Source of the DNA: Victivallis sp. Marseille-Q1083
GTDB lineage: Bacteria > Verrucomicrobiota > Lentisphaeria > Victivallales > Victivallaceae
Assembly (NCBI RefSeq): GCF_903645315.1
Contig: NZ_CAHJXL010000001.1
Span: forward strand, 930,001 to 994,000
Direction of reading: 5' to 3'
Length of the DNA: 64,000 nucleotides
The translations under genes and the position numbers were made by a program. The notes under the pieces were generated by a model that was given only the letters and a program-made list of their open reading frames with translations, was not told the origin of the DNA and ran no database searches. Below, piece by piece: positions 3,709-40,552 of this stretch. How positions within the stretch are numbered: the first letter of the stretch is position 1; each line of letters begins with the position of its first letter.

Positions 3709-4698
3709 TCAGAAATAATACTCGATAATCGCTTCGGAACGCAATTTCCCGGTGTATTCCCTGAAGGCTTTCCTGCGGGCCTCCTCTTCCAGTTTCCGCT
3801 TCAGCTCCACCATCGCCTGCTCAAACGGCACCTCCTTCGCTTCGTGCCGACCTTCCACCCGCAAATAGGCGACGTCCCCGCCCAGGTCGACCGGCCCGTA
3901 CCAGCGCTGCAAGGCCGGCGCCTCGCCGAGCGCCGCCGCGAATTCCGGCCGCAGACTGTCCTGGGCGATCCAGCCGAGATCGCCGCCGTTTTCCGCGTTC
4001 GGCCCGTTCGACCAACGGGCGACCAGGCCGATGAAATCCGCTTCGCCGGCCGCCGCCGCGGCGGCCACCTGCTTCAAAGCCTCCTCCCGGTCCGGATGCC
4101 GGGCGGTGATCAGCAGCAAATAGAGGTGCAGCTCCTCCGGCCGGTTGAATTCCGCCGGATGGGCCTGATAATATTCATAGAGCTCGCGCGGGGTCAGGTT
4201 GACCCGCACGTAATAACAGTAATCGATCATCCCGCTCAGAATCAACTGTTTCCTGGCATTTTCCCGCACTTCGGCCATCGTCATGCCGGAAGCGCGCACC
4301 AGACGTTCGAACTCCTTCCGGTTGCCGCTGGCCGATTCCATCACCATCGAATCGAGCAGATTCTCGATGTACTGATCCGGGATGTTGAACGGTTTGCGCT
4401 CGTATTCCAGCAGAATCAATTTCCGGTCGATCAAATCGTCGACGACCCGCTGCCGGATGGACCGGATCTTCTCCTCCAGCTCCTCGCCCCGGCTGACCGC
4501 ATGCGCCACCGCTTCCTCGCGGCGGCTCTCCGGCAATACATCGCTCAACGTGATCGGATCGCCGTTCACCGTCGCCAATATCGAATCGACCATCACCGCC
4601 GCCGCAGTTTCCGGCTTCGCCGGCGTTGCCGGCCCTTCTGCCGCCCGGAGCACGCCGCCAGCCGCCGCCAGACCAATTGCCAAAATCGACTTCCACAT
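3709..4698 (-). CDS. SurA-like periplasmic peptidyl-prolyl isomerase/chaperone
   Basis: Predicted periplasmic foldase of 329 residues. ATG 4698 is preceded by a near-perfect GGAGGTGA with 8-base spacing and gives a signal peptide (MWKSILAIGLAAAGG). An earlier in-frame ATG at 4728 overlaps the upstream stop but lacks such a site. Residues ~35-185 match the SurA N-terminal chaperone fold (VNGDPITLSDV, RQRVVDDLIDRKLILLEYE, IDYCYYVRVNLTPRELYEYYQAHPAEF). Residues ~190-295 resemble a parvulin domain (FIGLVARWSNGPNAENGGDLGW, ...GPVDLGGDVAYLRVEGR), somewhat degenerate. It is the last gene of the pdxA operon; in enterobacteria surA and pdxA are also neighbours, which supports the assignment. Confidence 0.85.
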   Translation of the reverse strand: MWKSILAIGLAAAGGVLRAAEGPATPAKPETAAAVMVDSILATVNGDPITLSDVLPESRREEAVAHAVSRGEELEEKIRSIRQRVVDDLIDRKLILLEYERKPFNIPDQYIENLLDSMVMESASGNRKEFERLVRASGMTMAEVRENARKQLILSGMIDYCYYVRVNLTPRELYEYYQAHPAEFNRPEELHLYLLLITARHPDREEALKQVAAAAAAGEADFIGLVARWSNGPNAENGGDLGWIAQDSLRPEFAAALGEAPALQRWYGPVDLGGDVAYLRVEGRHEAKEVPFEQAMVELKRKLEEEARRKAFREYTGKLRSEAIIEYYF

Positions 4699-4727
4699 CG
4701 TCTCAATCACCTCCGTTACCGACTCCA

Positions 4728-6617
4728 TCAAGCCCGCAATGCGGTCGGCAACTGCATCAACAGATAACCGACCGGCAACCAATACCAGCTGCCGCCGGCC
4801 ACCAGCAGCGCCATCGTCAACAATATCCCCAGCCAGGCGCCGCTCAGCAACAGCGGCACATTGGCCACACTCAGGCGCTGGCGGATGCCGTCGACGGCCA
4901 AAGCGCCCGGAATGATCGCCAGCACCAGATAACCGGGCTGAAACAACAACCACAACGCCAGCAGCAGCAATCCCAGGTTCACCCAGCTTCTGGTCCGCCT
5001 TCGCGGCAACGCCAGGGCGCCCAGGCCGAACAGCGCAGCCGGCAGGGCGCTCACCGGCAGCAGCTCCGCCGCCGTCAGACGCACCAGCACCGCCAATGCC
5101 AACAACGACAGCGACAAACCGCATTCGAACTCATTGAACCGGCCGTGCCACATGCCGTGGCGGCCGGCCACCACCCGGAGCGCCAGATAACCGGCCCAGA
5201 GCAGCGCCAACTGAACGACCCACCAGGAAATTTCCGGCAGCGGCTTCAAAACCGGATAAGCCGGAAAAGTGAAACGCGGCAGCAGTTCGACCGGCCGCGG
5301 CGGCGAAATCGCGTACAGAATGTCAAAGCAGCCCAGCAAATATTCATCCGCTTCCGGCGCCCGCTCCTTCAACCGCGCTCCCAGCGTCGCCAACTCCGTT
5401 TCCAACGGCCGCTTGCTGAACGCCCGCAGCGCATCCGGCCCCGGCAGCGGCATCGTATAGGAATAGGTCTCAAGCAGCGCCGGCTGCCACGCCTCCAGCT
5501 CGAACCAGGCTTCCGGCAGCACCAGCACCGCCTCCGGATAGCTCCGCGCCAGCCGCGCCAGCAAATCCAGGCTCGCCGTCAACCCGGCCGGATGCTCCAG
5601 CCAGACGATCAATTGATACGGACCGGCCGGCCACCGCGGCGGCCGGACCGGCTGCCGCGGCCAATAATGCAGCCGGGTTCCGGACTGCAATGTCAAAGCG
5701 TCGAACTGGTTCAGCAACCATTCCGCCGGGTTGAGCATCCAGTCCAATCGTTTCACCGCCGGCAGCCGGCCGTAAATCAGCGGCCAGTTGTTGTGCTGCG
5801 CCCCGATGAACAACACATCGGAAACCGTCTCTTCCGGCAGCAGCAGAGCCGGCAGCGCCGAACCGGTGACCACTTCAGTCGGCGGCACCGCCTCTTCCAG
5901 ACCAAGCTGCCGCCAATTGCAATAGGCATTCAAGCGCAATTCCGGCAGCAGATTGCGCTGCTGACGCCAACGCCCGCCCTGCTGGAAACTGCTGAAGAGC
6001 AAAGGAGCGATTCCCAAAAGCGCCGTCAGTAGCAACAGCAAAATACCGCCCCGCCGCCAGCGCCGCCCTCCCCAGGCCGCCCAGCAGCTTTTCAGCAGGC
6101 CGATGGCCAGATAACTGAACGCGACCAGGTCGCACCACCACGGCGCCGCTTCGACAAAAGCCAGCGTCACCACGCCGGACACCAGATAGCCGGCGCCAAA
6201 CCAACGCGCCAGCCGGCCGCCGGACGGCCGGGCCGCTGTCGCCGCCGCCCACAGCCCGACCAGCAAACCGCTGCTCATCGTCAGGCCGGCGGTCGCCAGC
6301 GGCAGCCAGTGACGCGACCACGAGTATTCACCGAACACAATGTAATCCAGAAAAAACTGCCAGAGCGCCAGATAAACGCCGAGGTACCACAGCAGATGGC
6401 CATAATCCCGGTCCGGCTTCCAGCAGCGGCGGCCCAGCACCCACCCGAACAACGTCCAGCCGAGGGAAGCGCTCAGACCGATGAAAAAACCGGGCAGCAC
6501 ACCGGGCAGCGGTGTCGTCAAATTGACCAGAGCGGCCAAAGCGGCGAAATGCAGACTGAACACCAAGGCTCCGGGCAAAAAACCGCAAGTGGTAAAACCG
6601 GGCCTGGCTTCGCTCAA
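4728..6617 (-). CDS. Polytopic membrane protein with degenerate spermidine-synthase-like middle
   Basis: The 629-residue protein has about six N-terminal hydrophobic segments (residues ~15-205), a soluble middle (~210-470) and about four more hydrophobic segments at the C-terminus. The middle contains DVLFIGAQHNNWPLIYG, then LDWMLNPAEWLLNQ, then YQLIVWLEHPAG. This layout recalls the nucleotide-binding strands of spermidine-synthase-like methyltransferase folds flanked by membrane helices, but the usual Gly-rich GGGDG loop is absent, so catalysis is doubtful. That reading is inference. The start is TTG 6617, overlapping the pdxA stop (TTGA) and preceded by GAGGTGGGGAA. Translational coupling to pdxA is likely. 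Confidence 0.75.
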   Translation of the reverse strand: MSEARPGFTTCGFLPGALVFSLHFAALAALVNLTTPLPGVLPGFFIGLSASLGWTLFGWVLGRRCWKPDRDYGHLLWYLGVYLALWQFFLDYIVFGEYSWSRHWLPLATAGLTMSSGLLVGLWAAATAARPSGGRLARWFGAGYLVSGVVTLAFVEAAPWWCDLVAFSYLAIGLLKSCWAAWGGRRWRRGGILLLLLTALLGIAPLLFSSFQQGGRWRQQRNLLPELRLNAYCNWRQLGLEEAVPPTEVVTGSALPALLLPEETVSDVLFIGAQHNNWPLIYGRLPAVKRLDWMLNPAEWLLNQFDALTLQSGTRLHYWPRQPVRPPRWPAGPYQLIVWLEHPAGLTASLDLLARLARSYPEAVLVLPEAWFELEAWQPALLETYSYTMPLPGPDALRAFSKRPLETELATLGARLKERAPEADEYLLGCFDILYAISPPRPVELLPRFTFPAYPVLKPLPEISWWVVQLALLWAGYLALRVVAGRHGMWHGRFNEFECGLSLSLLALAVLVRLTAAELLPVSALPAALFGLGALALPRRRTRSWVNLGLLLLALWLLFQPGYLVLAIIPGALAVDGIRQRLSVANVPLLLSGAWLGILLTMALLVAGGSWYWLPVGYLLMQLPTALRA

Positions 6618-7579
6618 TTCCCCACCTCGAGACGATGAGCGGCCCGCAAGGCGGCAGTCCGGATGGCGGCAGAAAGGCTGCCGGAATCGGCAATGCCGCG
6701 CCAGGCGATCTCAAACGCGGTCCCGTGGTCGACGCTGGTCCGGATGATCGGCAGTCCCAGCGTCGAATTGACGCCGCACTCGAAAGCCAGCATTTTAAAC
6801 GGTATATGCCCCTGGTCGTGGTACATCGAGACGATGCCGTCATACCCGGAACGGATTTTTTCGATGAACAGCGTATCCGGCGGGAAAGGCCCGTCGACGG
6901 CGATGCCCTCCTCCCGGAGCTGCTGCAGCGCCGGTTTGACGACCTGCTCATCCTCCAATCCCATGCAGCCGTTTTCGCCGGCATGCGGATTGATCGCCGC
7001 CGCCGCCAGTTTCGGCGCCGTCACGCCTTCGGCCTTGACGACCTCGTTCAACAACCGGGCAACCTTGACAATCCGCTCGCGGCTGATCCGGCCAGCCACC
7101 TCCCGCAGGGGAATATGGGTAGTGACGAACGCCACCCGTAAATTGCCGGCCGACTGCATCATTGCAAAATCCGCCGCGCCGCACAGTTCGGCGATCCGTT
7201 CGGTATGCCCGGTAAACGGAATGCCGGCCAAATTGACCGAATATTTGTTGACCGGCGCCGTCACCAGCGCATCGACTTTACCGGACAAGGCGTCCAGCGT
7301 CGCCGCCGTAATCGTCTCATAAGCCGCCAGACCGCAACAGCCCGCCGCCACGCCGCAGCGGAATTCGGCCGGTTGCAGGCGGCCGACCGGCCGCACTACC
7401 GGCCGCGACCCGGGCGCGAAACGCTCCGCCGCCTCGGCTATCACCGCCTCCGGTCCATAAATGACCAACTCCGCCAGCGCTCGAAACACCGGGTCGGCAG
7501 CCGCCCTCACCACCAGCTCCGGCCCGATACCGGCCGGATCTCCCATCGTCAGGGCGATGACAGGCAAGCGCTTTCGCAT
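6614..7579 (-). CDS. pdxA: 4-hydroxythreonine-4-phosphate dehydrogenase
   Basis: PdxA oxidises 4-phosphohydroxy-L-threonine with NAD+ in the DXP-dependent route to pyridoxal phosphate. The 321-residue product shows ALTMGDPAGIGPE at the N-terminus, the three metal-binding His regions (PFTGHTERIAEL; INPHAGENG; MYHDQGHIPFK) and SVDHGTAF near the C-terminus. ATG 7579 has GGAGGATTTTC just upstream, so I prefer it to the longer frame that opens at 7621. First gene of a three-gene minus-strand operon with the membrane protein and the SurA-like foldase. A promoter fitting TTGACG-17-TATATT lies at 7622-7650. Confidence 0.95.
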   Translation of the reverse strand: MRKRLPVIALTMGDPAGIGPELVVRAAADPVFRALAELVIYGPEAVIAEAAERFAPGSRPVVRPVGRLQPAEFRCGVAAGCCGLAAYETITAATLDALSGKVDALVTAPVNKYSVNLAGIPFTGHTERIAELCGAADFAMMQSAGNLRVAFVTTHIPLREVAGRISRERIVKVARLLNEVVKAEGVTAPKLAAAAINPHAGENGCMGLEDEQVVKPALQQLREEGIAVDGPFPPDTLFIEKIRSGYDGIVSMYHDQGHIPFKMLAFECGVNSTLGLPIIRTSVDHGTAFEIAWRGIADSGSLSAAIRTAALRAAHRLEVGN

Positions 7580-7621
7580 GAAAATCCTCCAGAAATGCTG
7601 TCGATGTTGCAAATATTGCAC

Positions 7622-7650
7622 AATATATCATGGCAGCGACATGCCGTCAA
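7622..7650 (-). promoter_or_regulatory. Probable sigma-70 promoter of pdxA
   Basis: On the minus strand a TTGACG box (7645-7650) is followed by 17 bases and TATATT (7622-7627), about 40 bases upstream of the pdxA start. Confidence 0.6.
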
Positions 7651-7699
7651 GACGAAAAAAGCCGTTGCCGAAACCTTTCGGCCAATTATTTCCGTAAAG

Positions 7700-7729
7700 T
7701 TTGCCGATAAAAAAGACCGAATCGGCAAA
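7700..7729 (+). repeat. Inverted repeat in the rpsA leader
   Basis: TTTGCCGA (7700-7707) and TCGGCAAA (7722-7729) form 8-base arms around a 14-base loop, 130 bases before the rpsA start. S1 regulates its own translation in other bacteria, so an RNA structure here is of interest, but no function is shown. I could not pick a convincing rpsA promoter in 7650-7860. Confidence 0.4.
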
Positions 7730-7860
7730 AATCGATTTGCATTTTCACAATTGCCAACTAACTTAGCAAGTTAAAGGATTTTTGGAATTTTCGTAACCTC
7801 CCGTCTAAACGGGAGAAAATCATTCAACCCAATAAATAAACAGAACCAACAACACAAAAC

Positions 7861-9591
7861 ATGGTAACAGAAGCAAAAACTCAGGCCGCCGAATCGAAGT
7901 ACGTTGATTTGGACAACATGCCCTCCATGGACGAGCTGCTGCAAGGCACCGTCAAAAGCGACTTCGTCGAAGGTTCCATCATTCCGGGTACGATCGTCGA
8001 AAAACGCAACGACGGCGCGCTGGTGGACATCGGCTACAAAGCGGAAGGCTTTGTGCCAGCCGGGGAATTCTCGAAATGGAACGACGTCAAGGTCGGCGAC
8101 ACGATCGACGTATTCCTCGAAGAAATCGAGAATGAGAACAGCATGCCGGGCATCAGTCTGTCGAAAGCCTGTGCCATCAAGGCCTGGAACCGGATCACCG
8201 ACGAATGCGGCGAAGGCAGTGTCGTCAAAGGCCTGATGAAACATCGCGTCAAAGGCGGTATCATCGTCGACATCGACGGAGTGGAAGCGTTCCTGCCGGG
8301 TTCCCAGATCGATATCGGTCCGGTCCGCAACATGGATGATTTCATCGGCAAGGAGTTCGACGTCAAGATTCTCAAGATCAACAGCGAACGCCGCAATATC
8401 GTCGTTTCCCGCCGTGAGCTTCTGGAAGAATCGCTGCGCGACCGCCGCAGTAATCTGCTTAAAGAGATGGAAATCGGCCAACTGCGTAGCGGCGTGGTCA
8501 AGAACATCACCGATTTCGGCGCGTTCATTGACCTCGGCGGTGTCGACGGCCTGCTGCATATCACCGATATGTCCTGGGGCCGCATCAGCCATCCGTCCGA
8601 GCTGCTCGAAGTCGGCCAGCCGGTGGAAGTGGTCATCCTCGACATCGATTACAACAAAGAGCGCGTTTCGCTGGGTTACAAGCAGAAATCGCAGAATCCG
8701 TGGGAAGCGGTCGAAGAGAAATATCCGGTCGGCAGCCGGGTCAAGGGCCGGGTCGTCAACATTATGCCGTACGGCGCATTCGTCGAAATCGAAGATGGCG
8801 TCGAAGGTTTGATCCACGTTTCGGAAATGTCATGGACCAAACGCATCACCAAGGCCGGTGAAGTGGTCAGCGTCGGCGAAGAAGTCGAAGCCGTCGTGCT
8901 GGACATCGATAAGAACAATAAGAAAATTTCCCTCGGCCTGCGCCAGAAAGAACGCAATCCATGGGAAGTGTTGTTGGAAAAATATCCGGTCGGCAGCCGC
9001 ATTCACGGCAAAGTCCGCAACATGACCAGCTATGGCGCTTTCGTTGAAATCGAAAACGACATCGACGGCATGATCCACGTTTCCGACATGTCCTGGACGC
9101 GCAAGATCAATAACCCGAGCGAAATTCTCAAGCCGGGCGATGAAGTCGCCGCGGTCATCCTGGATATCAATCCGGAACAGCAGCGCATCAGCCTCGGCCT
9201 GAAGCAGACCGAATCCGATCCGTGGGAAAATATCGATAAATTGTATGCGGTCGGCGACGTGGTCACCGGCAAAGTGACGAAGATCACCGCGTTCGGCGCC
9301 TTTATCGAACTGTCGCACAAGATCGACGGCTTGATCCACATTTCCCAGATCAGCAAAGAACATGTCGACAAAGTCAAAGATGTCCTGAACATCGGCGACG
9401 AAGTCGAAGCCCGGGTCATCAAAGTCGACAACGACGAACGCCGGATCGGCCTGAGCATCAAAGCCGCCAGCGAACATTTCTCGGAAGAGGAGTTGAAGCA
9501 GGCCGGCGAAGAGTATACCGCGGCTCTGAAGCCGGGCGATGAAATGGTGGCGATGGGCGAAGCCTTCGGCGACGTCTTCGGCAACAAATAA
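7861..9591 (+). CDS. rpsA: 30S ribosomal protein S1
   Basis: S1 binds mRNA and helps the 30S subunit start translation. The 576-residue product has six OB-fold S1 repeats beginning at about residues 39, 119, 206, 291, 378 and 465. The last four have the typical G..V.G.V..I..FGAFV.....DGLIHVSDMSW pattern, while the first two are divergent as in ribosome-binding S1 domains. The length matches six-domain S1 of Gram-negative bacteria (about 550-580). It is monocistronic: pdxA diverges upstream and a strong terminator follows. Confidence 0.97.
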   Translation: MVTEAKTQAAESKYVDLDNMPSMDELLQGTVKSDFVEGSIIPGTIVEKRNDGALVDIGYKAEGFVPAGEFSKWNDVKVGDTIDVFLEEIENENSMPGISLSKACAIKAWNRITDECGEGSVVKGLMKHRVKGGIIVDIDGVEAFLPGSQIDIGPVRNMDDFIGKEFDVKILKINSERRNIVVSRRELLEESLRDRRSNLLKEMEIGQLRSGVVKNITDFGAFIDLGGVDGLLHITDMSWGRISHPSELLEVGQPVEVVILDIDYNKERVSLGYKQKSQNPWEAVEEKYPVGSRVKGRVVNIMPYGAFVEIEDGVEGLIHVSEMSWTKRITKAGEVVSVGEEVEAVVLDIDKNNKKISLGLRQKERNPWEVLLEKYPVGSRIHGKVRNMTSYGAFVEIENDIDGMIHVSDMSWTRKINNPSEILKPGDEVAAVILDINPEQQRISLGLKQTESDPWENIDKLYAVGDVVTGKVTKITAFGAFIELSHKIDGLIHISQISKEHVDKVKDVLNIGDEVEARVIKVDNDERRIGLSIKAASEHFSEEELKQAGEEYTAALKPGDEMVAMGEAFGDVFGNK

Positions 9592-9618
9592 TACCATCGT
9601 TCCCAATCGGTTTCTGAC

Positions 9619-9653
9619 GACTGCCGGAAAGTTTCCGGCAGTCGTTTTTTTTG
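9619..9653 (+). terminator. Rho-independent terminator of rpsA
   Basis: GACTGCCGGAAA (9619-9630) pairs with TTTCCGGCAGTC (9632-9643) and is followed by GTTTTTTTT, 27 bases after the rpsA stop. Confidence 0.9.
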
Positions 9654-9965
9654 TTTATAAAAAATAGCGGCTCGACATAATCGGGGCATTCCGGCCCGCG
9701 GCACAGTCCAACGGTCGGAACCCGGTACTCCGGCACTCTCCGGAACGAAGCTGATATTCCCCATCGCGGAGCAATTCCATCCGAAGAGGCCGGAACGACC
9801 GTAAGGTAGGATATTGTCCGGAACCGGCAAGTTTACGAGTCAATTCCGGCCCCCCGGCTACGCCGAGTTCGAAAACGATTGACAAAAACACGCCTTATCC
9901 CAATGGAGCAAAATATCATTTCCCCCGACTACGGCCTCTCGATTTCATCGGACTGTAAAAAAAGG
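9654..9965. other. Gap between rpsA and fabF without a convincing gene
   Basis: This part of the convergent rpsA-fabF gap has short open frames, including a 78-codon one on the minus strand (9655-9891), but no ribosome site, recognisable motif or conserved-looking protein. I see no RNA gene here. Confidence 0.5.
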
Positions 9966-9997
9966 CAAAAAAAATGAGCACCGGAAATCCCGGTGCC
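9966..9997 (-). terminator. Rho-independent terminator of the fab operon
   Basis: Read on the minus strand, GCACCGG and CCGGTGC arms (9978-9984, 9990-9996) are followed by an eight-T run, directly downstream of the fabF stop at 10023. Confidence 0.85.
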
Positions 9998-10022
9998 CAA
10001 TGTCGAAATCTCTATGCCCCAA

Positions 10023-11279
10023 TCAGGCAAAACGCTTGAAAACAAGCGCGCCATTGTGGCCGCCGAAACCGAGGTTGATGTTGAGCGCCACATTGACTTC
10101 GCGCTCTCTGGCGGTATTCGGCGTAACATCCAGATCACACTCCGGATCCGGCGTTTCATAATTGATCGTCGGCGGCACGATACCGCTGCGAATGGCATTG
10201 ATGCAGACGATCGATTCCACCCCGCCGGCGGCGCCGAGCGCATGGCCGGTCGCCCCTTTGGTGCTGCTGACCGCCACCTTCTTCGCCGCCGCTTCCCCCA
10301 GGCCCGCCTTGATCGACAGGGTTTCGTATTTGTCGTTCAATTCGGTGCTGGTGCCGTGCGCGTTGATATAATCGACCTCATCCGGCCGCAGGCCGGCATG
10401 CGCCAGGGCGACTTTGATCGCCCGCGCCATTCCATCGCCGGCCGGATGCGGCGCAGTCACATGATGCGCGTCTCCGGTGGCGCCATAACCGACGATTTCC
10501 GCCAAAATATTGGCGCCGCGCTTCCTGGCGTGTTCCAGTTCTTCAATCACCAGCACACCGGCGCCTTCGGACATGACGAAACCGTCGCGGCCCAAGTCGA
10601 ACGGCCGGCTGGCATGCTGCGGGTCATCGTTGCGCTGGCTCATCGCTTTCAACGAACAGAAACCGGCGAAGCCGAGCGGCACGATGGAAGCTTCCACGCC
10701 GCCGCAGATCATCACGTCGGCATCGTCGCGCTTGATCATCCAGAACGCCTCGCCGATTGAATGGCAACCGGTCGCACAGGCCGTCACCAGTCCCAGATTC
10801 GGCCCGCGGGCGCCGTAACGCATCGAAATATTGCCGCTGGCCAGATCGCCGATCATCATCGGAATCAGAAACGGCGAAACTTTGTTCGGTCCACGCTCGA
10901 ACAGGACTTTCGCCTGCTCGCTGATCGTCGCCAACCCGCCGATGCCGCTGGATACCAGCACCCCGACCCGGGTGGAATCGAACGGACTGTTGGCCAAATC
11001 GTGCGGCAGCCCCGCCTCGTCCATCGCTTCGTCGCAGGCGGCAATGGCATATTGACAGAAGAGATCCAGACGCTTCGCCTCTTTGACAGACACGTATCTG
11101 GAAACATCGAAATTCTTGACTTCGCCGGCAATCTGCGTTCGATACTCGCTGGCGTCGAAACGGGTCACTTTGTCGATGCCGCAGCGGCCGTTGATCAGTG
11201 AATCCCAGAGTTCCTTGACGCTGTTGCCCACGCAGGACAGCGCCCCGCTGCCGGTTACCACTACGCGTCTGTCATTCAT
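10023..11279 (-). CDS. fabF: 3-oxoacyl-[acyl-carrier-protein] synthase II
   Basis: FabF condenses malonyl-ACP with acyl-ACP during fatty-acid elongation. The 418-residue protein has the KAS triad: Cys in VTACATGCHSIGEAF (about residue 165), His in INAHGTSTELND and His in TKGATGHALGAAGG. It begins RRVVVTGSGALSCVG like other FabF proteins and has the usual length. Last gene of the fabD-fabG-acpP-fabF operon, 102 bases after acpP. Confidence 0.97.
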   Translation of the reverse strand: MNDRRVVVTGSGALSCVGNSVKELWDSLINGRCGIDKVTRFDASEYRTQIAGEVKNFDVSRYVSVKEAKRLDLFCQYAIAACDEAMDEAGLPHDLANSPFDSTRVGVLVSSGIGGLATISEQAKVLFERGPNKVSPFLIPMMIGDLASGNISMRYGARGPNLGLVTACATGCHSIGEAFWMIKRDDADVMICGGVEASIVPLGFAGFCSLKAMSQRNDDPQHASRPFDLGRDGFVMSEGAGVLVIEELEHARKRGANILAEIVGYGATGDAHHVTAPHPAGDGMARAIKVALAHAGLRPDEVDYINAHGTSTELNDKYETLSIKAGLGEAAAKKVAVSSTKGATGHALGAAGGVESIVCINAIRSGIVPPTINYETPDPECDLDVTPNTAREREVNVALNINLGFGGHNGALVFKRFA

Positions 11280-11381
11280 ATATCAACCTTGCAATTTTGT
11301 TCGATATTAACAAATAATGGGTCACCGCCACGACGGGCGAGACCCATCCCAATCTATACCGTACGCCAATGACGCCGGAGC

Positions 11382-11618
11382 TTATTCAGCTTTGCTTTCG
11401 ATATAGCTGATCGCCTTGCCGACGGTGGTCAGCTTCTCGGCGTCTTCATCCGGAATGTCCGAACCGAATTCCTCTTCGAAAGCCATCACCAGTTCGACCA
11501 GGTCGAGAGAGTCCGCGCCCAGGTCTTCGATGAATTTCGCTTCTTCGGTAACCTGATCTTCCGCAACGCCCAACTGATCAACCACGATTTTCTTAACTTT
11601 TTCCGCAACTGAAGACAT
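11382..11618 (-). CDS. acpP: Acyl carrier protein
   Basis: AcpP carries growing acyl chains on a phosphopantetheine arm. The 78-residue acidic product contains the attachment motif [20 protein letters not shown], with the Ser at about residue 37. I chose ATG 11618, which has AAGGG nine bases upstream and gives the standard 78-residue length; an ATG nine bases earlier (11627) sits on the ribosome site. It lies between fabG and fabF, the usual place. Confidence 0.96.
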
Positions 11619-11774
11619 TTTTGTCATCCCTTAATATTTGTTTATACTGCTAGTTGAGTTTCTTTTCGATAAAAGCCAACTTCTCGTATTAAAATGTACC
11701 AATTTTCCAAAATTTCAAACGGAATTGTCGATATTGTCTAAAAAAACAATGCCATCCCAACCCTTCGAAGCCGC

Positions 11775-12527
11775 TTACATCAACATTCCGCCGTCGACGT
11801 TGACGACCTGTCCGGTGACATAATCGGAGTCCGGCGAGCAGAGGAAATAGACCACATTGGCGACGTCTTCCGGCTTGCCGCCGCGCTGCATCGGAATCAC
11901 CTTCAAAAACGCCTCGGTCGCTTCGGCCGACAGCTTGCCGGTCATATCGGTGACGATATATCCCGGCGCCACCGCGTTGGCCTGGATGTTGCGCGATGCA
12001 AACTCCTTGGCCACCGTTTTGGTCAGGCCGATGACACCGGCCTTGGAGGCGGAATAGTTGGCCTGTCCGGCATTGCCCATCCGGCCGACCACCGAGGCGA
12101 TGCTGACGATTTTGCCGGAACGGGCCTTCATCATCGGGCGGCAGACCGCCTTCGTAAAATTGAAAGTCCCTTTCAGATTGACGGCCAGTACGGCATCCCA
12201 GTCGGCTTCGCTCATCCGCATCAGCAGATTGTCGCGGGTGATGCCGGCATTGTTGACCAGAATGTCGACCTTGCCGAAATCATCCATCACCCGTTTGACG
12301 GTCGCTTCGGCATCTTCCAGCTTGGCGACGTTCGCCGCATAAGCCCTGGCGGTCACGCCGGCGGCGGCAAATTCATCGGCGGTCTGCTGAGCCACCTCAA
12401 GCATGATATCGACGATCGCCAGCGAAGCGCCTTCGGCGGCCAATCGTTCACAAATCGCTTTGCCGATGCCGCGCGCACCGCCGGTGACGATGGCGACTTT
12501 GCCATCCAAACGTTTTTCCAAACTCAC
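11775..12527 (-). CDS. fabG: 3-oxoacyl-[acyl-carrier-protein] reductase
   Basis: FabG reduces beta-ketoacyl-ACP with NADPH. The 250-residue short-chain dehydrogenase shows TGGARGIGKA (dinucleotide loop), NNAG, catalytic Ser in IVSIASVVGRMG, and YSASKAG (catalytic Tyr/Lys). Start GTG 12527 is preceded by AGGAAGGACAACGAAA, and the upstream extension of the frame reads into fabD. It follows fabD by 20 bases. Confidence 0.95.
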   Translation of the reverse strand: MSLEKRLDGKVAIVTGGARGIGKAICERLAAEGASLAIVDIMLEVAQQTADEFAAAGVTARAYAANVAKLEDAEATVKRVMDDFGKVDILVNNAGITRDNLLMRMSEADWDAVLAVNLKGTFNFTKAVCRPMMKARSGKIVSIASVVGRMGNAGQANYSASKAGVIGLTKTVAKEFASRNIQANAVAPGYIVTDMTGKLSAEATEAFLKVIPMQRGGKPEDVANVVYFLCSPDSDYVTGQVVNVDGGMLM

Positions 12528-32860: not shown

Positions 32861-34012
32861 TTACGGCATTTCTCCGGCCTGAGTCCGGTCCGCCGGCAAT
32901 TCAAGCAATTGCTCGATATCCGGCAGGTAAGGCAGGTAATTCCGCAAACAATAGGTGTTGGGCGGCCGGTCGAAATCAGCCGGGTCGGCAGTACAACTGC
33001 CGGAGCAGAACGCCAGGAACGGACAGTCGCGGCAAGGCCGGAACCGCCGCAGTTCGACCGACGACCGTTCACGCAACTGCCGCCAGACCGGGCTGTGCCG
33101 CCATAATACGGCGATATCGTCACGCAGCGCGTCGCCGGTCACCAGGTGCATCAGCGCCGTACACGGCGCGATCTTGCCGTCGGCCCGGATGACCATCCGG
33201 GTAAAATACGCCTGGCAGCTTCCCAGCGATCCGCCGGCGCCCCGGCCGGAATCGGCCGACCGGCATTTCCAATCGCCATAAATTCTGCGCCAGGACCGCA
33301 GGATTTCTCCGCAATTGCCGCCGAACCGCACCCGGTACCGCCGGGCGGCCGCGTCGATTTCGCGCAGTGCCGCCACCTGCTGCGCCGGAGTCAACTGCAG
33401 TCGCCGCAGGGTATCCCGCGCTCCGGGAACTGTTCCCAGCAACGAAAATTCCAGCGACGCTGCCGGAATGAACTCCAGCAGGTGTTCCATCGTTTCAGCC
33501 AGGCAGCTGCAATTATGCGGCCCGACCGTACAGCGTACCGCACAGGGAATCCGATGGCGGCGCAACAATGCCAGCGCCCGCACCGTCTGTTGGTAAGCAC
33601 CGATGCCGCGCATGGCGTCATTGCACGCTTCCGGCCCGTCCAGCGACAGATGAACCTGTTCGCAACGGCCGGAAACGGCCAAAGCCGCCACGATTTCTTC
33701 GGTCAGCAACACGCCGTTGGTGGTCAGCACGAACCGCCAGCGGCCGTCCCCCACCCGCCGGAGAATTTCGGCAAACCCCTCGTGCAGCAGCGGTTCACCG
33801 CCGGTCAGGATCAGTTTGGCCACCTTCAGGCCGGCCAATTTATCCAGGATGGCAAGCCATTGACCGGTATCCAGTTCATACGCGGTTTTGCCCGGCCCCT
33901 GACTGTAATAGCAATACCGGCAAGCGAGATTGCAGCGGTTGACCAAATTCAGGTAAGCGATCAACGGCGTCCGCAACTTCAATGATTTATCCGGAACTTC
34001 CCGCGAAGCCAC
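32861..34012 (-). CDS. Radical SAM/SPASM peptide-modification-type enzyme
   Basis: 383 residues from GTG 34012, which has GGGAGGGGAATACA upstream. Residues C27-x3-C31-x2-C34 (CNLACRYCYYSQ) bind the SAM [4Fe-4S] cluster, followed by LILTGGEPLLHEGF (GGEP) and HLSLDG. The C-terminal SPASM/twitch region has Cys at about 327, 330, 336, 340 and 355 (CRDCPFLAFCSGSC...YC) for auxiliary clusters. SPASM enzymes of this size mostly modify ribosomal peptides or activate sulfatases. The sulfatase-maturase hallmarks are not obvious, and an 80-base gap separates it from an upstream 36-codon gene that looks like a substrate. Its SPASM segment CTADPADF closely resembles the peptide's end CAADPTDF. Confidence 0.9.
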   Translation of the reverse strand: MASREVPDKSLKLRTPLIAYLNLVNRCNLACRYCYYSQGPGKTAYELDTGQWLAILDKLAGLKVAKLILTGGEPLLHEGFAEILRRVGDGRWRFVLTTNGVLLTEEIVAALAVSGRCEQVHLSLDGPEACNDAMRGIGAYQQTVRALALLRRHRIPCAVRCTVGPHNCSCLAETMEHLLEFIPAASLEFSLLGTVPGARDTLRRLQLTPAQQVAALREIDAAARRYRVRFGGNCGEILRSWRRIYGDWKCRSADSGRGAGGSLGSCQAYFTRMVIRADGKIAPCTALMHLVTGDALRDDIAVLWRHSPVWRQLRERSSVELRRFRPCRDCPFLAFCSGSCTADPADFDRPPNTYCLRNYLPYLPDIEQLLELPADRTQAGEMP

Positions 34013-34092
34013 TGTATTCCCCTCCCCCGCACCGGCTCGCCGACCGGATGATCCGCTATTTTATACCACTGGCCAGCCAACTAAAATCACTT

Positions 34093-34203
34093 CTAAAAAT
34101 CAGTTGGATCAGCAGCACAAATCATCGAATCTCCATGCAATATCTGCGCCCACGGCTGAAATTGTTCCAGTTCCGGTTTCTGGTAGACAATTTTTTCTTC
34201 CAT
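34093..34203 (-). CDS. 36-residue candidate RiPP precursor peptide
   Basis: A short gene: ATG 34203, stop TAG 34093, with GGAGGA ten bases before the start. The N-terminal half reads MEEKIVYQKPELEQF, a charged leader with the K-x-Y-x-KPE pattern seen in many short peptides encoded beside radical SAM enzymes. The C-terminal half reads ILHGDSMICAADPTDF with a single Cys (residue 29) and three Asp. It precedes the radical SAM/SPASM gene on the same strand and a good promoter lies upstream (34343-34371). Assignment as a modified-peptide precursor is inference from size, position and partner; no transporter or protease gene is adjacent. Confidence 0.65.
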   Translation of the reverse strand: MEEKIVYQKPELEQFQPWAQILHGDSMICAADPTDF

Positions 34204-34342
34204 CGCGACGGCATCCTCCCAATTGTTTCAAAATATTTTAAGCTAACATTCAAAAACAGGAAAACATCAAAAAGAAGCTTAATATCATTAAAACAAATAA
34301 AATAGCGAAATAATTCAAAATAAATTTTTCTTATTTCACTTA

Positions 34343-34371
34343 AAAATATCACCAAAATACGACAATGCCAA
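34343..34371 (-). promoter_or_regulatory. Promoter of the peptide-radical SAM operon
   Basis: On the minus strand TTGGCA (34366-34371), 17 bases, TATTTT (34343-34348), in an AT-rich leader about 140 bases upstream of the peptide start. The rest of the gap 34204-34496 is AT-rich (34220-34400) then mixed and shows no gene. Confidence 0.55.
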
Positions 34372-35154: not shown

Positions 35155-35628
35155 ATGGCAGTACAGACTCGAAAAGCCGCACAACCGTTGTGGCAGGTGA
35201 TTTTCTTTCTGGCGGACGGCCTGCGCGAATCGGCGTCGGAAGTTTTGAAGGACGATCCGCGCGGCATGTTGAATCAGATGACGGTAAATCAGGTTCGAAT
35301 TATCGTCAAGCTGGGGCATTTGCTCAAGCAGCATCCGGAAGGCGTCAGTTTGAAACTGCTGGCCGCCAATTTGAAATTGAGTCCGGCCGCCACCTCTGAG
35401 ATGGTTGACAGTTTGGTTCGCAAAGGTTGGCTGTCGCGGGAAGTGAACAGTGCAGATCGGCGTTCGATCGCCATCAAACTTTCTCCGTGCACCGAGAACA
35501 CCCTGTTGTTGCGCAATCACTTTTTTGACCGGGTTACCGATGAGTTTCTGGCCGGTGTTCCGCCGGAAAAGCTGGCGCTGCTTCAGGAGCTCCTGGAGGA
35601 TTTCCTGGCCAGAATCAGCCCGCGCTGA
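35155..35628 (+). CDS. MarR-family transcriptional regulator 1
   Basis: 157 residues. Winged helix: LKLLAANLKLSPAATSEMVDSLVRKGWLSREVNSADRRSIAIKLSP (residues ~67-112), with the DRRS wing signature of MarR. Such proteins usually repress efflux genes and release DNA on binding phenolic or lipophilic compounds. It heads the run leading into an RND pump and is similar along its length to the next gene, so the two probably arose by duplication. Confidence 0.9.
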   Translation: MAVQTRKAAQPLWQVIFFLADGLRESASEVLKDDPRGMLNQMTVNQVRIIVKLGHLLKQHPEGVSLKLLAANLKLSPAATSEMVDSLVRKGWLSREVNSADRRSIAIKLSPCTENTLLLRNHFFDRVTDEFLAGVPPEKLALLQELLEDFLARISPR

Positions 35629-35636
35629 TGCTCCCA

Positions 35637-35669
35637 CCTTCCCCGTTCGGCGGGAAAGTGTCCTTTTTT
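35637..35669 (+). terminator. Probable terminator after the first MarR gene
   Basis: CTTCCCCG-TTCG-GCGGGAAAG stem (one mismatch) followed within five bases by TTTTTT. It would separate the two regulators into different transcripts. Confidence 0.55.
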
Positions 35670-35682
35670 CCGGGAATATTGC

Positions 35683-35710
35683 TTGCAAATATTTACGCAT
35701 ACTATATATT
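35683..35710 (+). promoter_or_regulatory. Promoter of the second MarR gene and RND pump
   Basis: TTGCAA (35683-35688), 16 bases, TATATT (35705-35710). The 50 bases between it and the gene are AT-rich with AATAAA...TTTATT symmetry at 35729-35751, a possible regulator site. Confidence 0.6.
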
Positions 35711-35763
35711 ATGGTTTCCCTAACTATAATAAAACAAAGCAAGCTTTATTGAAGGATAACAAA

Positions 35764-36273
35764 ATGGCCGCTCATCCGAGTCCCAACAGTTTATGGCAAC
35801 TGTTGTTCACTCTGACCGACCGGTTGCGAGAGCTCGAGAACGGCGAATGCAGTCCGAAATTTCTGGAGGAAACATTCAGCTTGACGATCAACCAAACCCG
35901 GGTGATTCGCATGGTAAAAGAGCTCCAGGAAGCCCGGTTCGGCGAAATCACGCTGAAAATCTTATCGGAACATTTGAAAATCACCGCTGCAGCCGCATCG
36001 GAGATGGTTGAAAATTTAGTACAGAAAGGAGTTTTGAAACGAACTCCCAGCAGCAATGACCGCCGGGCGATTTCATTGGCCCTGTCCGATGAAGCGCAGG
36101 ATTTCATCCGCCGCCGTCAAAACGGGTTCGACAGTGTGACCGCGGATTTTTTAAACAGCAACGGCAAGGAGGAAAACTTGCAGTTGTTCAACTTATTGGA
36201 AAAATTCAACAAACAACTGAGCCGGCTCCAGCCGGACTCGAAGTCGAATAGCAAGGAAGCCAAAGAAAAATGA
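35764..36273 (+). CDS. MarR-family transcriptional regulator 2
   Basis: 169 residues from ATG 35764 (AAGGATAACAAA upstream; the frame extends to 35683 but reads the promoter). Winged helix LKILSEHLKITAAAASEMVENLVQKGVLKRTPSSNDRRAISLALSD with the DRR wing. The C-terminus is Lys/Glu/Ser-rich and probably disordered. Its stop overlaps the adaptor gene start (ATGA), so it is the immediate operon partner of the pump and its likely local regulator. Confidence 0.9.
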   Translation: MAAHPSPNSLWQLLFTLTDRLRELENGECSPKFLEETFSLTINQTRVIRMVKELQEARFGEITLKILSEHLKITAAAASEMVENLVQKGVLKRTPSSNDRRAISLALSDEAQDFIRRRQNGFDSVTADFLNSNGKEENLQLFNLLEKFNKQLSRLQPDSKSNSKEAKEK

Positions 36274-37412
36274 TGAAACGAGCGAATCTTGTGCAATTAA
36301 CTCTCGCCGGACTGGTATTGGGCGCCGGTTCCCTCCAGGCGGCAGACAAAGCAACGGAAAAAACGCCGGCGGCGCAGTCGCAGGAAATACCGGCGGTAAC
36401 CGTCTCAGAGGTCACCGAACTGGACCGGACGGAGCCGAAACGTTACGTCGGCGTCATCCGGGCAATCGAAGAAGTCTCCATCCCGGCCCGTATTTCCGGC
36501 TGGATTGAAAAAATCAATTTCACCGAAGGCAGCATGGTCAAAAAAGGCGATCTGCTGTTCGAGCTGGAAGATACCACCTATCAGGCCAACGTTTTGTCGG
36601 CCAAAGCGATTCTCGCCCAGGCCGAAGCGGAATTCGATTACGCCCAGAGCGAATTCGACCGGAAATCCGGACTGTATGAAAAAAACGCCGTCGCCAAAAC
36701 CGAACAGGAAAATGCCTCCCGGCTGGTGAAATCGACCAAAGCGAAAATCGAAGAGGCCAAGGCGGCCTTGATACAGGCCGAAAACGAGTTGTCCTACACC
36801 AAGATCTATGCGCCGATCACCGGCCGGATCGGCAAGCGCACCTATAGCGAAGGCAATTACGTGACGCCGCAGAGCGCGGAACTGGCCGACATCGTCCAGA
36901 TCGATCCGATCCACGTCAGTTTCTCGATCAGTGAACGTGATTTCCTGGACAGCTTCAACAAAGCCCAGGCCAGCACCACCGAATCGGTCATCACCATCGT
37001 GCCGGCCAACCACGAAGAATTCAAAGGCGACATCAAAATCGATTTCATCGACAACCGGGTCGACAAGGCGACCGGGACGATCACCATCTACCTGGAATGC
37101 ACCAATCCGGACGAGCGGCTGGTGCCCGGCGGTTTCGTCACCGTGAAGCTGGCGGATAAATTCGCCGAGCCGGTTCCGGCGATCAACGTCACCGCCGTCA
37201 TGACCGACCAGAAGAGCAATTACGTTTACGTCGTCGACGCCGACAATATCGTCGAACGCCGCGACATCAAACTGGGTAATGTCGTCGAAGGCATGCAACT
37301 GGTCACTTCCGGTTTGAAAGTGGGCGAGCAAGTCGTCATCGACGGCGTCCACAAGGCTGCTCCCGGCAGCAAGGTCAATCCGGTTCCGGTGGCCCAGCCG
37401 ACTCAACAGTAA
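36270..37412 (+). CDS. RND efflux periplasmic adaptor (membrane fusion protein)
   Basis: 380 residues with a signal peptide (MMKRANLVQLTLAGLVLGAGSLQA). Order: lipoyl-like half (EVSIPARISGWIEKINFTEGSMVKKGDLLFELEDTTYQA), coiled-coil hairpin (~105-165), second lipoyl half (ELSYTKIYAPITGRIGKRTYSEGNYV), beta-barrel and membrane-proximal domains. AcrA/MexA type. It bridges the inner-membrane pump and an outer-membrane channel. The N-terminus lacks a lipobox Cys. No TolC-like gene follows, so the channel must be encoded elsewhere. Confidence 0.94.
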   Translation: MMKRANLVQLTLAGLVLGAGSLQAADKATEKTPAAQSQEIPAVTVSEVTELDRTEPKRYVGVIRAIEEVSIPARISGWIEKINFTEGSMVKKGDLLFELEDTTYQANVLSAKAILAQAEAEFDYAQSEFDRKSGLYEKNAVAKTEQENASRLVKSTKAKIEEAKAALIQAENELSYTKIYAPITGRIGKRTYSEGNYVTPQSAELADIVQIDPIHVSFSISERDFLDSFNKAQASTTESVITIVPANHEEFKGDIKIDFIDNRVDKATGTITIYLECTNPDERLVPGGFVTVKLADKFAEPVPAINVTAVMTDQKSNYVYVVDADNIVERRDIKLGNVVEGMQLVTSGLKVGEQVVIDGVHKAAPGSKVNPVPVAQPTQQ

Positions 37413-37423
37413 GGTGAAATAAG

Positions 37424-40400
37424 ATGATTTCAAAAGTTTTCATCGACCGGCCGAAATTCGCCATCGTCATCTCGGTGGTGATGGTGCTGGCCGGAACGAT
37501 CTGCCTCTTTAAAATGCCGGTGGCGGAATACCCGGAAGTCGCCCCGCCGACCATCGTGGTCAACGCCAGCTATCCCGGCGCCAGCGCGCAGGTCATCGCC
37601 GACACGGTGGCCGCGCCGATCGAATCGGAGATCAACGGCGTCGAAGATTTGATCTATTACTCGTCGCAGTCGGACAACTCCGGGAACTATTCGCTGTCGA
37701 TCACCTTCAAATCGGGCATCGACAGCGACATGGCCCAGGTGAATGTGCAGAATGCCATTCAGCGGGCGGAGCCGTCGCTGCCGCAGGAGGTCAAGGCGCT
37801 CGGCGTCAACGTCTACAAGCGTTCCGGCGACATCCTCGGCATGCTGGCTTTCACCAGCGAAAACGGCAAACTCTCCAAGCTCTTCATGAGCAATTACGTC
37901 AGTATGAACGTCAAAGACGCCCTCGCCCGTATCGACGGCGTCAGCCAGGCGGTCATCTGGGGCGAACTCAACTACAGTATGCGCCTCTGGCTGGACCCGC
38001 TGCGGATGACGGCGCTCGGCGTCACCCATGAGGATGTCAAAAACGCGATCAGCACGCAGAATATCCAGGCGGCGGCCGGCGCGGTCGGCACCGAAGAGAG
38101 CAGCGAGTTCATGCAGTACAAGCTCAACGCCGAAGGACGTTTGAAGGAGGTCGGCGACTTTGAGCAGATCATCGTCAAATCCGGCAGCGACGGCCGGCAG
38201 ATCCGTTTGAGCGACATCGCCCGCATCGAGCTGGGCGCCGAAACCTATAACGGCACCAACTATTTCAACGGCGAACCCTGCGTCATGATGGCGCTGTTCC
38301 GCAACAACGATGCCAACGCGGTGGCGGTCATCGACAACATCAAGTCCGAAATGGCCAAGCTCGCCCAGAATTTTCCGGAGGGGCTCTCCTGGCATCTCGG
38401 CTACGACTCGACCGAATTCGTCCGGATCACGATGGAGGAAATCGTCGTCACGCTGATCCTGACCTTCGTGCTGGTCGTGGCGATCACCTACATCTTCCTG
38501 CAGGACTGGCGCGCCACGCTGATTCCGTCGATCACCATCCCGGTTTCGCTGCTCGGCACGTTCATCTTCCTCTATCCGATGGGTTTCAGCGCCAACGTGC
38601 TGACGATGTTCGCCCTGATCCTGGTCATCGGTTCGGTGGTCGACGACGCCATCGTCGTCGTCGAGAACTGCATGCGACTGATCGAAGAAGAACACCTGTC
38701 GCCTTACGAGGCGGCGGTCAAGGGCATGGGCCAGATCACCGGCGCGGTCATCGCGACGACATTGGTGATCCTGGCGATCTACGCGCCGGTCGCTTTCTAC
38801 GGCGGCATGGTCGGCACTATTTACAAGCAGTTCGCCGTCACGATGTGTATCGCCCTGGTGCTGTCGTCGGTCAACGCCCTGACATTGAGTCCGGCCCTGT
38901 GCGCCATCGTGCTGCGTCCGCAGAAGCAGGCCCGCGGACCGTTCAAATGGTTCAACATCGGGCTGAATTTTTCGCGGGACGGTTACGTGTCGCTCTCCGG
39001 CATTCTGGTGCGCCGCGGCCTGTTGACGGCCATCCTGTTCGCCGGCGTGCTCTACCTGAATTATCATCTGTTCAACAAAGTGCCGACCTCCTTCCTGCCA
39101 GACGAGGACAAAGGCGCCATCTTCTGCGATGTGCAACTGGCGCCGGGCTCCACGCTGTACCGGACCGGCCAGGCGCTCGGTAAAATTTCCGGCATCATCC
39201 GCGGCATCGACGGCGTCAAGGACATGCTGGTCATCTCCGGCCACAGCATGACCGCCGGCAGCGGTGAAAATGTCGGCATGGTCATCGTCGTCCTGAAGGA
39301 CTGGAGCGAACGGAAAACGCCGGAGCTGCAGGTCAAATACATCCAGCAGCAGATCATGCAGAAGTGCGCGACCATTCCGGAAGCCAACGTCCGGGCCTTC
39401 CTGCCGCCGGCTATCATCGGGCTGGGCGCCACCGGCGGCGTCAGCTTTGCGCTGCAGGCCACCGGCGACCAAACGCCGCAGGAACTGGCGCAGGCGGTGC
39501 GCAGTCTGATCGGCCAGATCATGGCCACCGGCAAGGCGGTTTACGCCACCAGTTCGTTCGAAGCCAATACGCCGCAGTTGGAGCTGGTGATCGACCGGGC
39601 CAAAGCGGAAGCGCTGAACATTCCGGTCAGCCGGATTTTCGGCACCCTGCAGAGTCAGCTGGCGGCTTATTACATCAACGATTTCAACCTGAACGGTTAT
39701 ACCTTTCAGGTCAAGATGCAGGCGGACAGCGATTACCGCAAAAACATCAACATGATCGAACAGTTGAACGTCCAGACCGATGCCGGCCAGATGGTGCCGT
39801 TGAGCACCATCGCCCAATTGAAATGGATCACCGGCCCGCGCCAGATCGAACGTTTCAACCAGTTTTCGTCGGCCAGCATGAACACGCAGAGCCTGCCGTC
39901 GGTCAGTTCCGGCGAAATGATGAATACAGTCCAGCAACTGGTCAACGACACCCTGCCGAAGGATTACCAGATCAGCTGGACCGACATGAGCTACCAGGAG
40001 CAGAACAATCAGGGGCAGATCATCTACCTGATGGCGCTGGCGCTGATCTTCGGCTATCTCTTCCTGGTCGCGCAATACGAAAGCTGGACCGTGCCGATTT
40101 CGGTAATTCTGTCGGTCGCGGTGGCGACGCTCGGCGCCATGGTGGCGCTGCTGGTCACCGATATGCCGTTGAGCATCTACTGCCAGCTCGGCTTGATCAT
40201 GCTGATCGGCCTGGCCAGCAAGAATGCGATCCTGATGGTGGAATTCTCCAAACAGGAACGGGAAGCCGGCCGGACCATCGAAGAGGCGGCGCTGAACGGC
40301 GCCCGCACCCGGTTCCGGGCGGTGATGATGACCGCGCTCTCGTTCGTCATCGGCGTGTTCCCGATGGTGATCGCCAGCGGCGCCGGTGCCGGCAGCCGGC

Positions 40401-40552
40401 GGGCGATCGGCGTGACGACTTTCTGGGGCATGGTCGCGGCCACCGCAGTCGGCATCTTCTTCATCCCGGCGTTGTACGCGTTCTTCCAGCGCGGCCGGGA
40501 AGCGCTGCAGCGGCTGCGCGGCACGCATCCGGACGGCAAAACGCAGCGGTAG
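37424..40552 (+). CDS. RND multidrug efflux permease (HAE1/AcrB type)
   Basis: 1042 residues, the standard AcrB length: 12 predicted TM helices in two halves, each with a large periplasmic loop. Conserved features include FIDRPKFAIVISVVM at the start, the proton-relay Asp pair in ILVIGSVVDDAIVVVENCMR, and GLASKNAILMVEFSKQ in the second half. A proton-driven trimeric exporter of drugs or lipophilic compounds. It starts 11 bases after the adaptor. Substrates cannot be read from the sequence. Confidence 0.96.
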   Translation: MISKVFIDRPKFAIVISVVMVLAGTICLFKMPVAEYPEVAPPTIVVNASYPGASAQVIADTVAAPIESEINGVEDLIYYSSQSDNSGNYSLSITFKSGIDSDMAQVNVQNAIQRAEPSLPQEVKALGVNVYKRSGDILGMLAFTSENGKLSKLFMSNYVSMNVKDALARIDGVSQAVIWGELNYSMRLWLDPLRMTALGVTHEDVKNAISTQNIQAAAGAVGTEESSEFMQYKLNAEGRLKEVGDFEQIIVKSGSDGRQIRLSDIARIELGAETYNGTNYFNGEPCVMMALFRNNDANAVAVIDNIKSEMAKLAQNFPEGLSWHLGYDSTEFVRITMEEIVVTLILTFVLVVAITYIFLQDWRATLIPSITIPVSLLGTFIFLYPMGFSANVLTMFALILVIGSVVDDAIVVVENCMRLIEEEHLSPYEAAVKGMGQITGAVIATTLVILAIYAPVAFYGGMVGTIYKQFAVTMCIALVLSSVNALTLSPALCAIVLRPQKQARGPFKWFNIGLNFSRDGYVSLSGILVRRGLLTAILFAGVLYLNYHLFNKVPTSFLPDEDKGAIFCDVQLAPGSTLYRTGQALGKISGIIRGIDGVKDMLVISGHSMTAGSGENVGMVIVVLKDWSERKTPELQVKYIQQQIMQKCATIPEANVRAFLPPAIIGLGATGGVSFALQATGDQTPQELAQAVRSLIGQIMATGKAVYATSSFEANTPQLELVIDRAKAEALNIPVSRIFGTLQSQLAAYYINDFNLNGYTFQVKMQADSDYRKNINMIEQLNVQTDAGQMVPLSTIAQLKWITGPRQIERFNQFSSASMNTQSLPSVSSGEMMNTVQQLVNDTLPKDYQISWTDMSYQEQNNQGQIIYLMALALIFGYLFLVAQYESWTVPISVILSVAVATLGAMVALLVTDMPLSIYCQLGLIMLIGLASKNAILMVEFSKQEREAGRTIEEAALNGARTRFRAVMMTALSFVIGVFPMVIASGAGAGSRRAIGVTTFWGMVAATAVGIFFIPALYAFFQRGREALQRLRGTHPDGKTQR

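Follow-up and report, generated by a model that had tools for sequence, protein, structure and literature searches.

A 36-codon peptide gene and its ScmE-like radical SAM/SPASM neighbor in Victivallis: a candidate two-gene unit for a cysteine-modified peptide

A stretch of 64,000 nucleotides from the genome of Victivallis sp. Marseille-Q1083 (contig NZ_CAHJXL010000001.1, positions 930,001 to 994,000 of the forward strand), which we call the window and number from its first letter, carries on its minus strand a short gene of 36 codons (34093-34203) and, after a spacing of 80 bases, a complete radical SAM/SPASM enzyme gene of 383 codons with a GTG start (32861-34012). A first-pass annotation of the window had singled out this pair, and both genes lie where it placed them, as does the GGAGGA ten bases 5' of the ATG of the short gene; the sequence upstream of the enzyme's GTG is GGGGGAGGGG. 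The short gene encodes the peptide MEEKIVYQKPELEQFQPWAQILHGDSMICAADPTDF, which appears to be divided into a leader of approximately residues 1-24 and a core of approximately residues 25-36 (DSMICAADPTDF). The core contains the motif CAADPTD with the only cysteine of the peptide, Cys29 (34117-34119, minus), as presumed thioether donor, and the presumed acceptor sites within Asp32-Pro-Thr-Asp35 (34099-34110, minus), where the aspartates are at +3 and +6 from Cys29; Phe36 is the sole aromatic residue of the core.

Relatives of the peptide were sought with a 24-row profile, which gave 61 matches in 18 of 78 genomes of the same family as the window genome; one of these (G015, E 0.0039) is a frame without the leader and was dropped, leaving 60 peptides in 17 genomes. 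Their leader profile can be written Y.KPEL..F..W....GxS. In the 24-row alignment Y7 and P10 are invariant and G24 is nearly so, and Y..P is kept in 56 of the 60 family peptides. We also note that a G-x-Ser/Thr occurs close to the presumed leader/core border in 55 of the 60. When a 12-row profile was used on an even sample of 387 genomes, taken from a larger group in the phylum, it matched in 12 genomes, all of the same family as the window genome. The nearest relative of the window peptide, at 56% identity, is encoded in genome G033 (contig C3): YEKPELIDFEHWMAQIIKGDSCIGG against YQKPELEQFQPWAQILHGDSMICAA.

The first-pass annotation had proposed that a conserved short gene should stand upstream of orthologous enzymes, and we found one repeatedly. 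Strong ScmE-like matches (E <= 1e-70) number 23, in 16 of the 78 family genomes; the threshold was set there because the E-values jump from 6.7e-77 to 3.7e-52 (a fragment) and 1.1e-47. A profile peptide lies directly upstream at 10 of the 23 genes, in five genomes including the window's own. The enzyme-adjacent peptides are 11 in number, since one genome (G059) carries two in tandem, and they occur in two-gene as well as larger layouts: no other biosynthetic gene was recognized by eye in the stretch read at G004:C3, G004:C6, G021:C33, G021:C2 and G059, the last two of which sit at contig ends. Thirteen strong matches have no adjacent profile peptide. Seven of these are in five genomes with cassettes of the SynChlorMet (SCM) type (G001, G003, G019, G023 and G031), where the precursors are different, and the other six are in G027, G040, G046, G401, G411 and G399, the first five of which have profile peptides elsewhere.

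Because of these relatives, 10 of the 23 enzyme genes having a profile peptide directly upstream, we regard the short gene as more than a chance open reading frame, an explanation that we rejected on leader conservation and the repeated adjacency to the enzyme. That the frame is nevertheless a non-functional gene is extremely improbable: the leader is conserved over 60 loci and the adjacency recurs at 10 enzyme genes, although the promoter-like site is at chance level and there is no close strain among the genomes compared. That site, TTGGCA-17-TATTTT (34343-34371, minus), does exist 5' of the peptide gene as had been reported, but sites of this kind number 2 here against 1.1 (sd 1.1) expected, and we dropped it as evidence for the gene. 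In sum, the window peptide has the marks of the precursor of a ribosomally synthesized and post-translationally modified peptide (RiPP), in that it is short, has a conserved leader and a variable core, and is encoded adjacent to a maturase-like gene.

The enzyme's assignment to the radical SAM/SPASM class stands firmly, with scores above the curated Pfam cutoffs for both Radical_SAM (95.1 bits, cutoff 29.5) and SPASM (33.2 bits, cutoff 21.5); in a 16-row alignment the CxxxCxxC, the GGE and five SPASM cysteines are invariant. Its top NCBIfam model is TIGR04250, ScmE, at 220.7 bits, with the runner-up model at 108.4 bits. It does not reach the ScmE equivalog threshold of 400 bits, whereas the enzyme of one compared locus (L041) scores 567.4 bits on the same model. 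Enzyme matches at E <= 1e-20 were present in 21 of 100 genomes, the window's own included, and those outside it are 25-37% identical to the window enzyme. A scan of contigs with the window enzyme alone as query found no relatives; a five-row alignment as query gave the best 80 of 511 loci encoding a relative, and eight of these were examined for context. In a 30-row tree, 27 ScmE-like rows split from three ScmF rows, but the tree gives the window enzyme no supported place within the ScmE-like group.

A further link between peptide and enzyme is the core cysteine. When the 17 peptide genomes were split by the presence of a strong enzyme match (E <= 1e-70) into 10 with and 7 without, a core cysteine was found in 32 of 34 peptides of the enzyme-bearing genomes and in 1 of 26 peptides of the others (p 1.7e-13). 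Counted by genome the figures are 10 of 10 with the enzyme and 1 of 7 without (p 5.7e-4), and within the single genus g16 the cysteine is present in 19 of 19 peptides from the six enzyme-bearing genomes and in 1 of 20 from the three that lack the enzyme. The core cysteine also bears on two other explanations. A non-thioether modification at other core residues, for example a C-C crosslink or an epimerization, might be suggested by the match to the WgkB model of NCBIfam (92.1 bits, cutoff 650) and by the fact that SPASM enzymes perform many chemistries; the co-occurrence with cysteine and the single aromatic residue of the window core argue against it, and we think it quite improbable. The true substrate might instead be another peptide or protein, with the short peptide mediating docking or regulation only. 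In favor of this, the window genome encodes two more peptides with the leader, each behind the gene of a large protein, alongside one strong ScmE-like enzyme; but those two further peptides lack cysteine and the enzyme's neighbor is the one that has it, so that this possibility also seems a slim one.

The position of acidic residues in the cores points in the same direction. With 28 less redundant cysteine-containing cores and shuffles that preserve composition, Asp or Glu was found at +3 to +6 of 52 of 58 cysteines against a shuffled mean of 32.7, and none of 5000 shuffles was as high; the mirror interval before the cysteine is not enriched (37 against 32.8, p 0.17). PapB links Cys to Asp/Glu in Cys-Xn-Asp stretches where n = 0-6 (PMC9413430), and the C-A-A-D-P-T-D of the window core fits such a spacing, with n = 2 and n = 5. 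Since the core cysteine tracks the enzyme, the acids are suitably spaced from the cysteine and PapB provides a precedent, we take a thioether between Cys29 and an aspartate to be the likeliest product, with Asp32 and Asp35 as presumed acceptor sites by analogy with PapB. We put the chance that this is the exact bond type at about one half, and the chance that Cys29 is modified in some way at about three quarters. The first-pass annotation had read the pair as precursor and maturase, with a KPE-type leader, a short core with cysteine and aspartates, and a crosslink as product; the pair looks real, and a thioether is the form of crosslink that best agrees with our findings.

We therefore favor, as probable though with some reserve, the interpretation that the pair is a small two-gene RiPP unit whose ScmE-like enzyme forms a thioether from Cys29 to Asp32 or Asp35, and that it derives from a larger peptide family. 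In this model the product of the short gene would be a precursor whose YxKPEL-type leader precedes a core of about twelve residues. The ScmE-like enzyme would read the leader, probably with the help of a PqqD-type chaperone whose gene lies at another place in the genome, and would then bond the sulfur of Cys29 to a side-chain carbon in Asp32 or Asp35, giving a single thioether. The pair itself would have branched off from a peptide family in which core cysteine and enzyme go together and many of whose members are encoded directly after genes for very large proteins, probably secreted by the type I route. The gene pair, the conserved leader, the recurring adjacency, the joint presence of cysteine and enzyme and the spacing of cysteine and acids are observations; that the peptide is what the enzyme modifies, which bond forms and at which acceptor, the part played by PqqD, removal of the leader, export and the biological role are inferences.

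Several observations weigh against this interpretation. By sequence, the window enzyme's nearest match among solved structures is the sactisynthase SkfB (77.2 bits), and SkfB makes an alpha-carbon thioether. The PapB family threshold (NF047865, 340 bits) is not reached by the window enzyme, which scores 76.2 bits, and in the 30-row tree its branch is long and has no supported sister. Loosening the enzyme threshold to 1e-30 adds G056 and G024 to the enzyme-bearing genomes and weakens the correlation between cysteine and enzyme. The two peptides without cysteine in enzyme-bearing genomes both come from the window genome itself, where they lie behind large-protein genes, and the sole cysteine-containing peptide of the enzyme-less genomes (G056:C5), which we scored as a case against our interpretation, has its cysteine at the leader/core border. 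Acids are also somewhat enriched before the cysteine, at -3, -2 and -7. In all of these counts, neither the copies in one genome nor genomes that are related to each other can be taken as independent, and many related cores remain after the 70% filter. Finally, the 78 family genomes searched included no second genome of the window's genus, and thus no close strain for a comparison of selection.

The SkfB match leads to the alternative that we take most seriously, namely that the enzyme does act on Cys29 but makes an alpha-carbon thioether (a sactionine) or a link to some non-acidic residue, the acids serving charge or secretion. It is consistent with this that many of the cysteine-less peptides have acidic cores as well. 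The individual positions speak more for acidic acceptors, in that against shuffles acids are enriched at +3, +5, +6 and +7 after the cysteine and not at +1, +2 and +4, although the modest enrichment before the cysteine blunts the point. We judge the sactionine or non-acidic link to be rather unlikely, and proceed with Cys29-Asp as the favored bond.

The wider family has a setting that the window pair lacks: its peptides are often directly behind genes of very large proteins. Nineteen of the 60 peptides start no more than 100 bases after a same-strand open reading frame of at least 500 amino acids, the longest being 2221, with the sizes of several of these upstream frames being lower bounds; a further 19 of the 60 follow a frame cut by the end of the available sequence, which is a contig end in 18 cases. 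When the enzyme-adjacent peptides are excluded, the corresponding counts are 17 of 49 after a frame of at least 500 amino acids and 18 of 49 after one cut by a contig end. The upstream frames end in -LA or -IA in 28 of 38 cases, related copies not being independent. Comparison of 19 upstream sequences gave a match to at least one other (E <= 1e-6) for 15 and to none for two; the remaining two, from locus L047, match one another only and belong to a different kind. By eye the large proteins are repeat-rich and without an N-terminal signal, and one of three scanned with Pfam matched the AIDA stalk model; they are probably secreted by a type I route. In one genome (G056, with 12 profile matches, e.g. 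L260, L271 and L272) there are many near-identical cysteine-less copies of the peptide, mostly near contig ends, as if the assembly had broken in the upstream gene.

Two such loci are in the window genome. At L035 (G000:C1:250000-262000; 5466-11985, minus) a second leader-bearing peptide, without cysteine, is behind the gene of a protein of at least 1279 amino acids with an AIDA match, and is followed by an ScmC-like gene that a transposase gene divides (6057-7379, plus). At L058 (G000:C1:490000-506000; 4717-7233, plus) a third leader-bearing, cysteine-less peptide is directly behind the gene of a 763-amino-acid protein, which shares 43% identity with the large L035 protein over 516 residues; no maturase gene was seen beside the L058 peptide.

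Candidate helper genes of the family are found in several arrangements. A gene row in G027 (L297, G027:C23:99000-112000; 5159-11902, plus) contains a type I ABC exporter with a C39-like domain, HlyD, PqqD, an S24-like peptidase (22.8 bits, slightly below cutoff), the enzyme and an HprK-like ScmC relative (30.2 bits against a cutoff of 33.3; ScmC match 56 bits). G040 and G046 have the same gene order, and in all three genomes the cysteine-bearing peptides are located elsewhere than in the row. G024 has a large-protein gene, a cysteine-less peptide, an ScmC-like gene, PqqD and an ABC transporter together, without the enzyme. An ScmC-like match (E <= 1e-5) is present in 17 of 17 peptide genomes and in 12 of the 61 others (p 8e-10). 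The ScmC cutoff is exceeded in 5 of the 78 genomes and none of these five has a profile peptide, so we regard the matches in the peptide genomes as relatives of ScmC and not ScmC proper.

Beside the window pair itself, ScmF, PqqD and ScmC were not seen; the window enzyme had no Pfam match to an RRE or PqqD domain at E <= 1, and none was recognized by eye among the neighboring open reading frames. The pair is flanked 3' by a convergent sodium:solute symporter gene and 5' by an AT-rich stretch and two tRNA-Glu genes. Farther off in the window (35155-40552, plus) are a tandem pair of MarR-family regulator genes, then genes for an HlyD-type adaptor and an AcrB-type efflux pump. The earlier description of the pair as a minimal system thus holds for its neighborhood but not for the genome as a whole, which also encodes a PqqD homologue, two type I exporters and a split ScmC-like gene. 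The single PqqD match above cutoff (G000:C1:3186307; 52 bits, 52.5 on the single protein) has neighbors that look unrelated by eye. Two HlyD homologues are 47 and 49% identical to the G027 HlyD, and each comes after an ABC exporter with a C39-like domain; at L308 (G000:C1:2458000-2474000; 4669-11059, plus) a type I ABC exporter and HlyD are followed by a 780-amino-acid open reading frame with a Peptidase_C13 (legumain-like) match. The genome's sole ScmC-like gene is the one split by an intervening transposase gene (522 bits). Its C-terminal piece has an ScmC match of 26 bits, and its N-terminal piece matches no model and is 27% identical to an ScmC-like protein of G021 (E 3e-7, single comparison). 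The PqqD homologue and the split gene are far from the window pair, and with such homologues elsewhere in the genome the "minimal" pair may draw on helpers that are scattered.

More speculatively, and with less than an even prospect of being right, the whole family may be RiPPs that partner very large type-I-secreted proteins. PqqD and the HprK-like ScmC relative would handle the peptide, a thioether crosslink would be added wherever there is an ScmE-like enzyme, and the product would be exported together with the large protein or joined to it. The window pair would then be a free-standing, cysteine-bearing member with its helpers scattered, and the ScmC-like protein could phosphorylate the G-x-Ser/Thr. 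If so, the family couples RiPP-type peptides to very large secreted proteins, which would be a new role for peptide modification. The window pair gives a branch of the ScmE-like radical SAM enzymes a concrete candidate substrate and a predicted bond, in a very small two-gene system where both can be tested, and the cysteine-less members in enzyme-less genomes offer a natural control.

Among the papers found in the open-licence literature, judged by titles and the openings of abstracts, none describes the window's peptide-enzyme system; the term SynChlorMet was not found there, and a search for ScmE, ScmF and ScmC together with radical SAM and PqqD, requiring at least three of the five terms, returned nothing. 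Among known systems, the SCM cassette (TIGR04249, TIGR04250, TIGR04251), in which ScmE has ScmF, a PqqD homologue and ScmC beside it, supplies the window enzyme's top curated model, and loci related to the window pair carry ScmC-like and PqqD genes. Two of the eight loci examined for context, both SCM-like and outside the family, have short peptides that recall the leader: three cysteine-rich ones with Y..P at L099 and one with W..P at L100. The window pair differs from the cassette in the enzyme's score, in its short core with a single cysteine and in having no ScmF, ScmC or PqqD seen adjacent. The sactipeptide maturase SkfB resembles the window enzyme as its nearest solved structure by sequence, but on the SkfB model the enzyme scores 87.7 bits (cutoff 300). 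A further parallel is the export of large surface proteins along the type I route, by ABC transporters that carry a C39-like domain: many family peptides lie behind genes of large repeat-rich proteins with no N-terminal signal obvious by eye, and in G027 an exporter of this sort is in one row with PqqD, the enzyme and the ScmC-like gene. The window pair has neither a large-protein nor an exporter gene as neighbor, and type I systems are not known to have a RiPP-like peptide encoded after the secreted protein's gene. PapB-type ranthipeptides differ in that the window peptide has one cysteine with Asp at +3 and +6 and its enzyme falls short of the PapB model. They share with the window pair a cysteine followed within a few residues by aspartate and a SPASM radical SAM enzyme adjoining the precursor, and the spacing of cysteine and acids in the window core is compatible with a ranthipeptide, in which the cysteine thioether would be to a non-alpha carbon.
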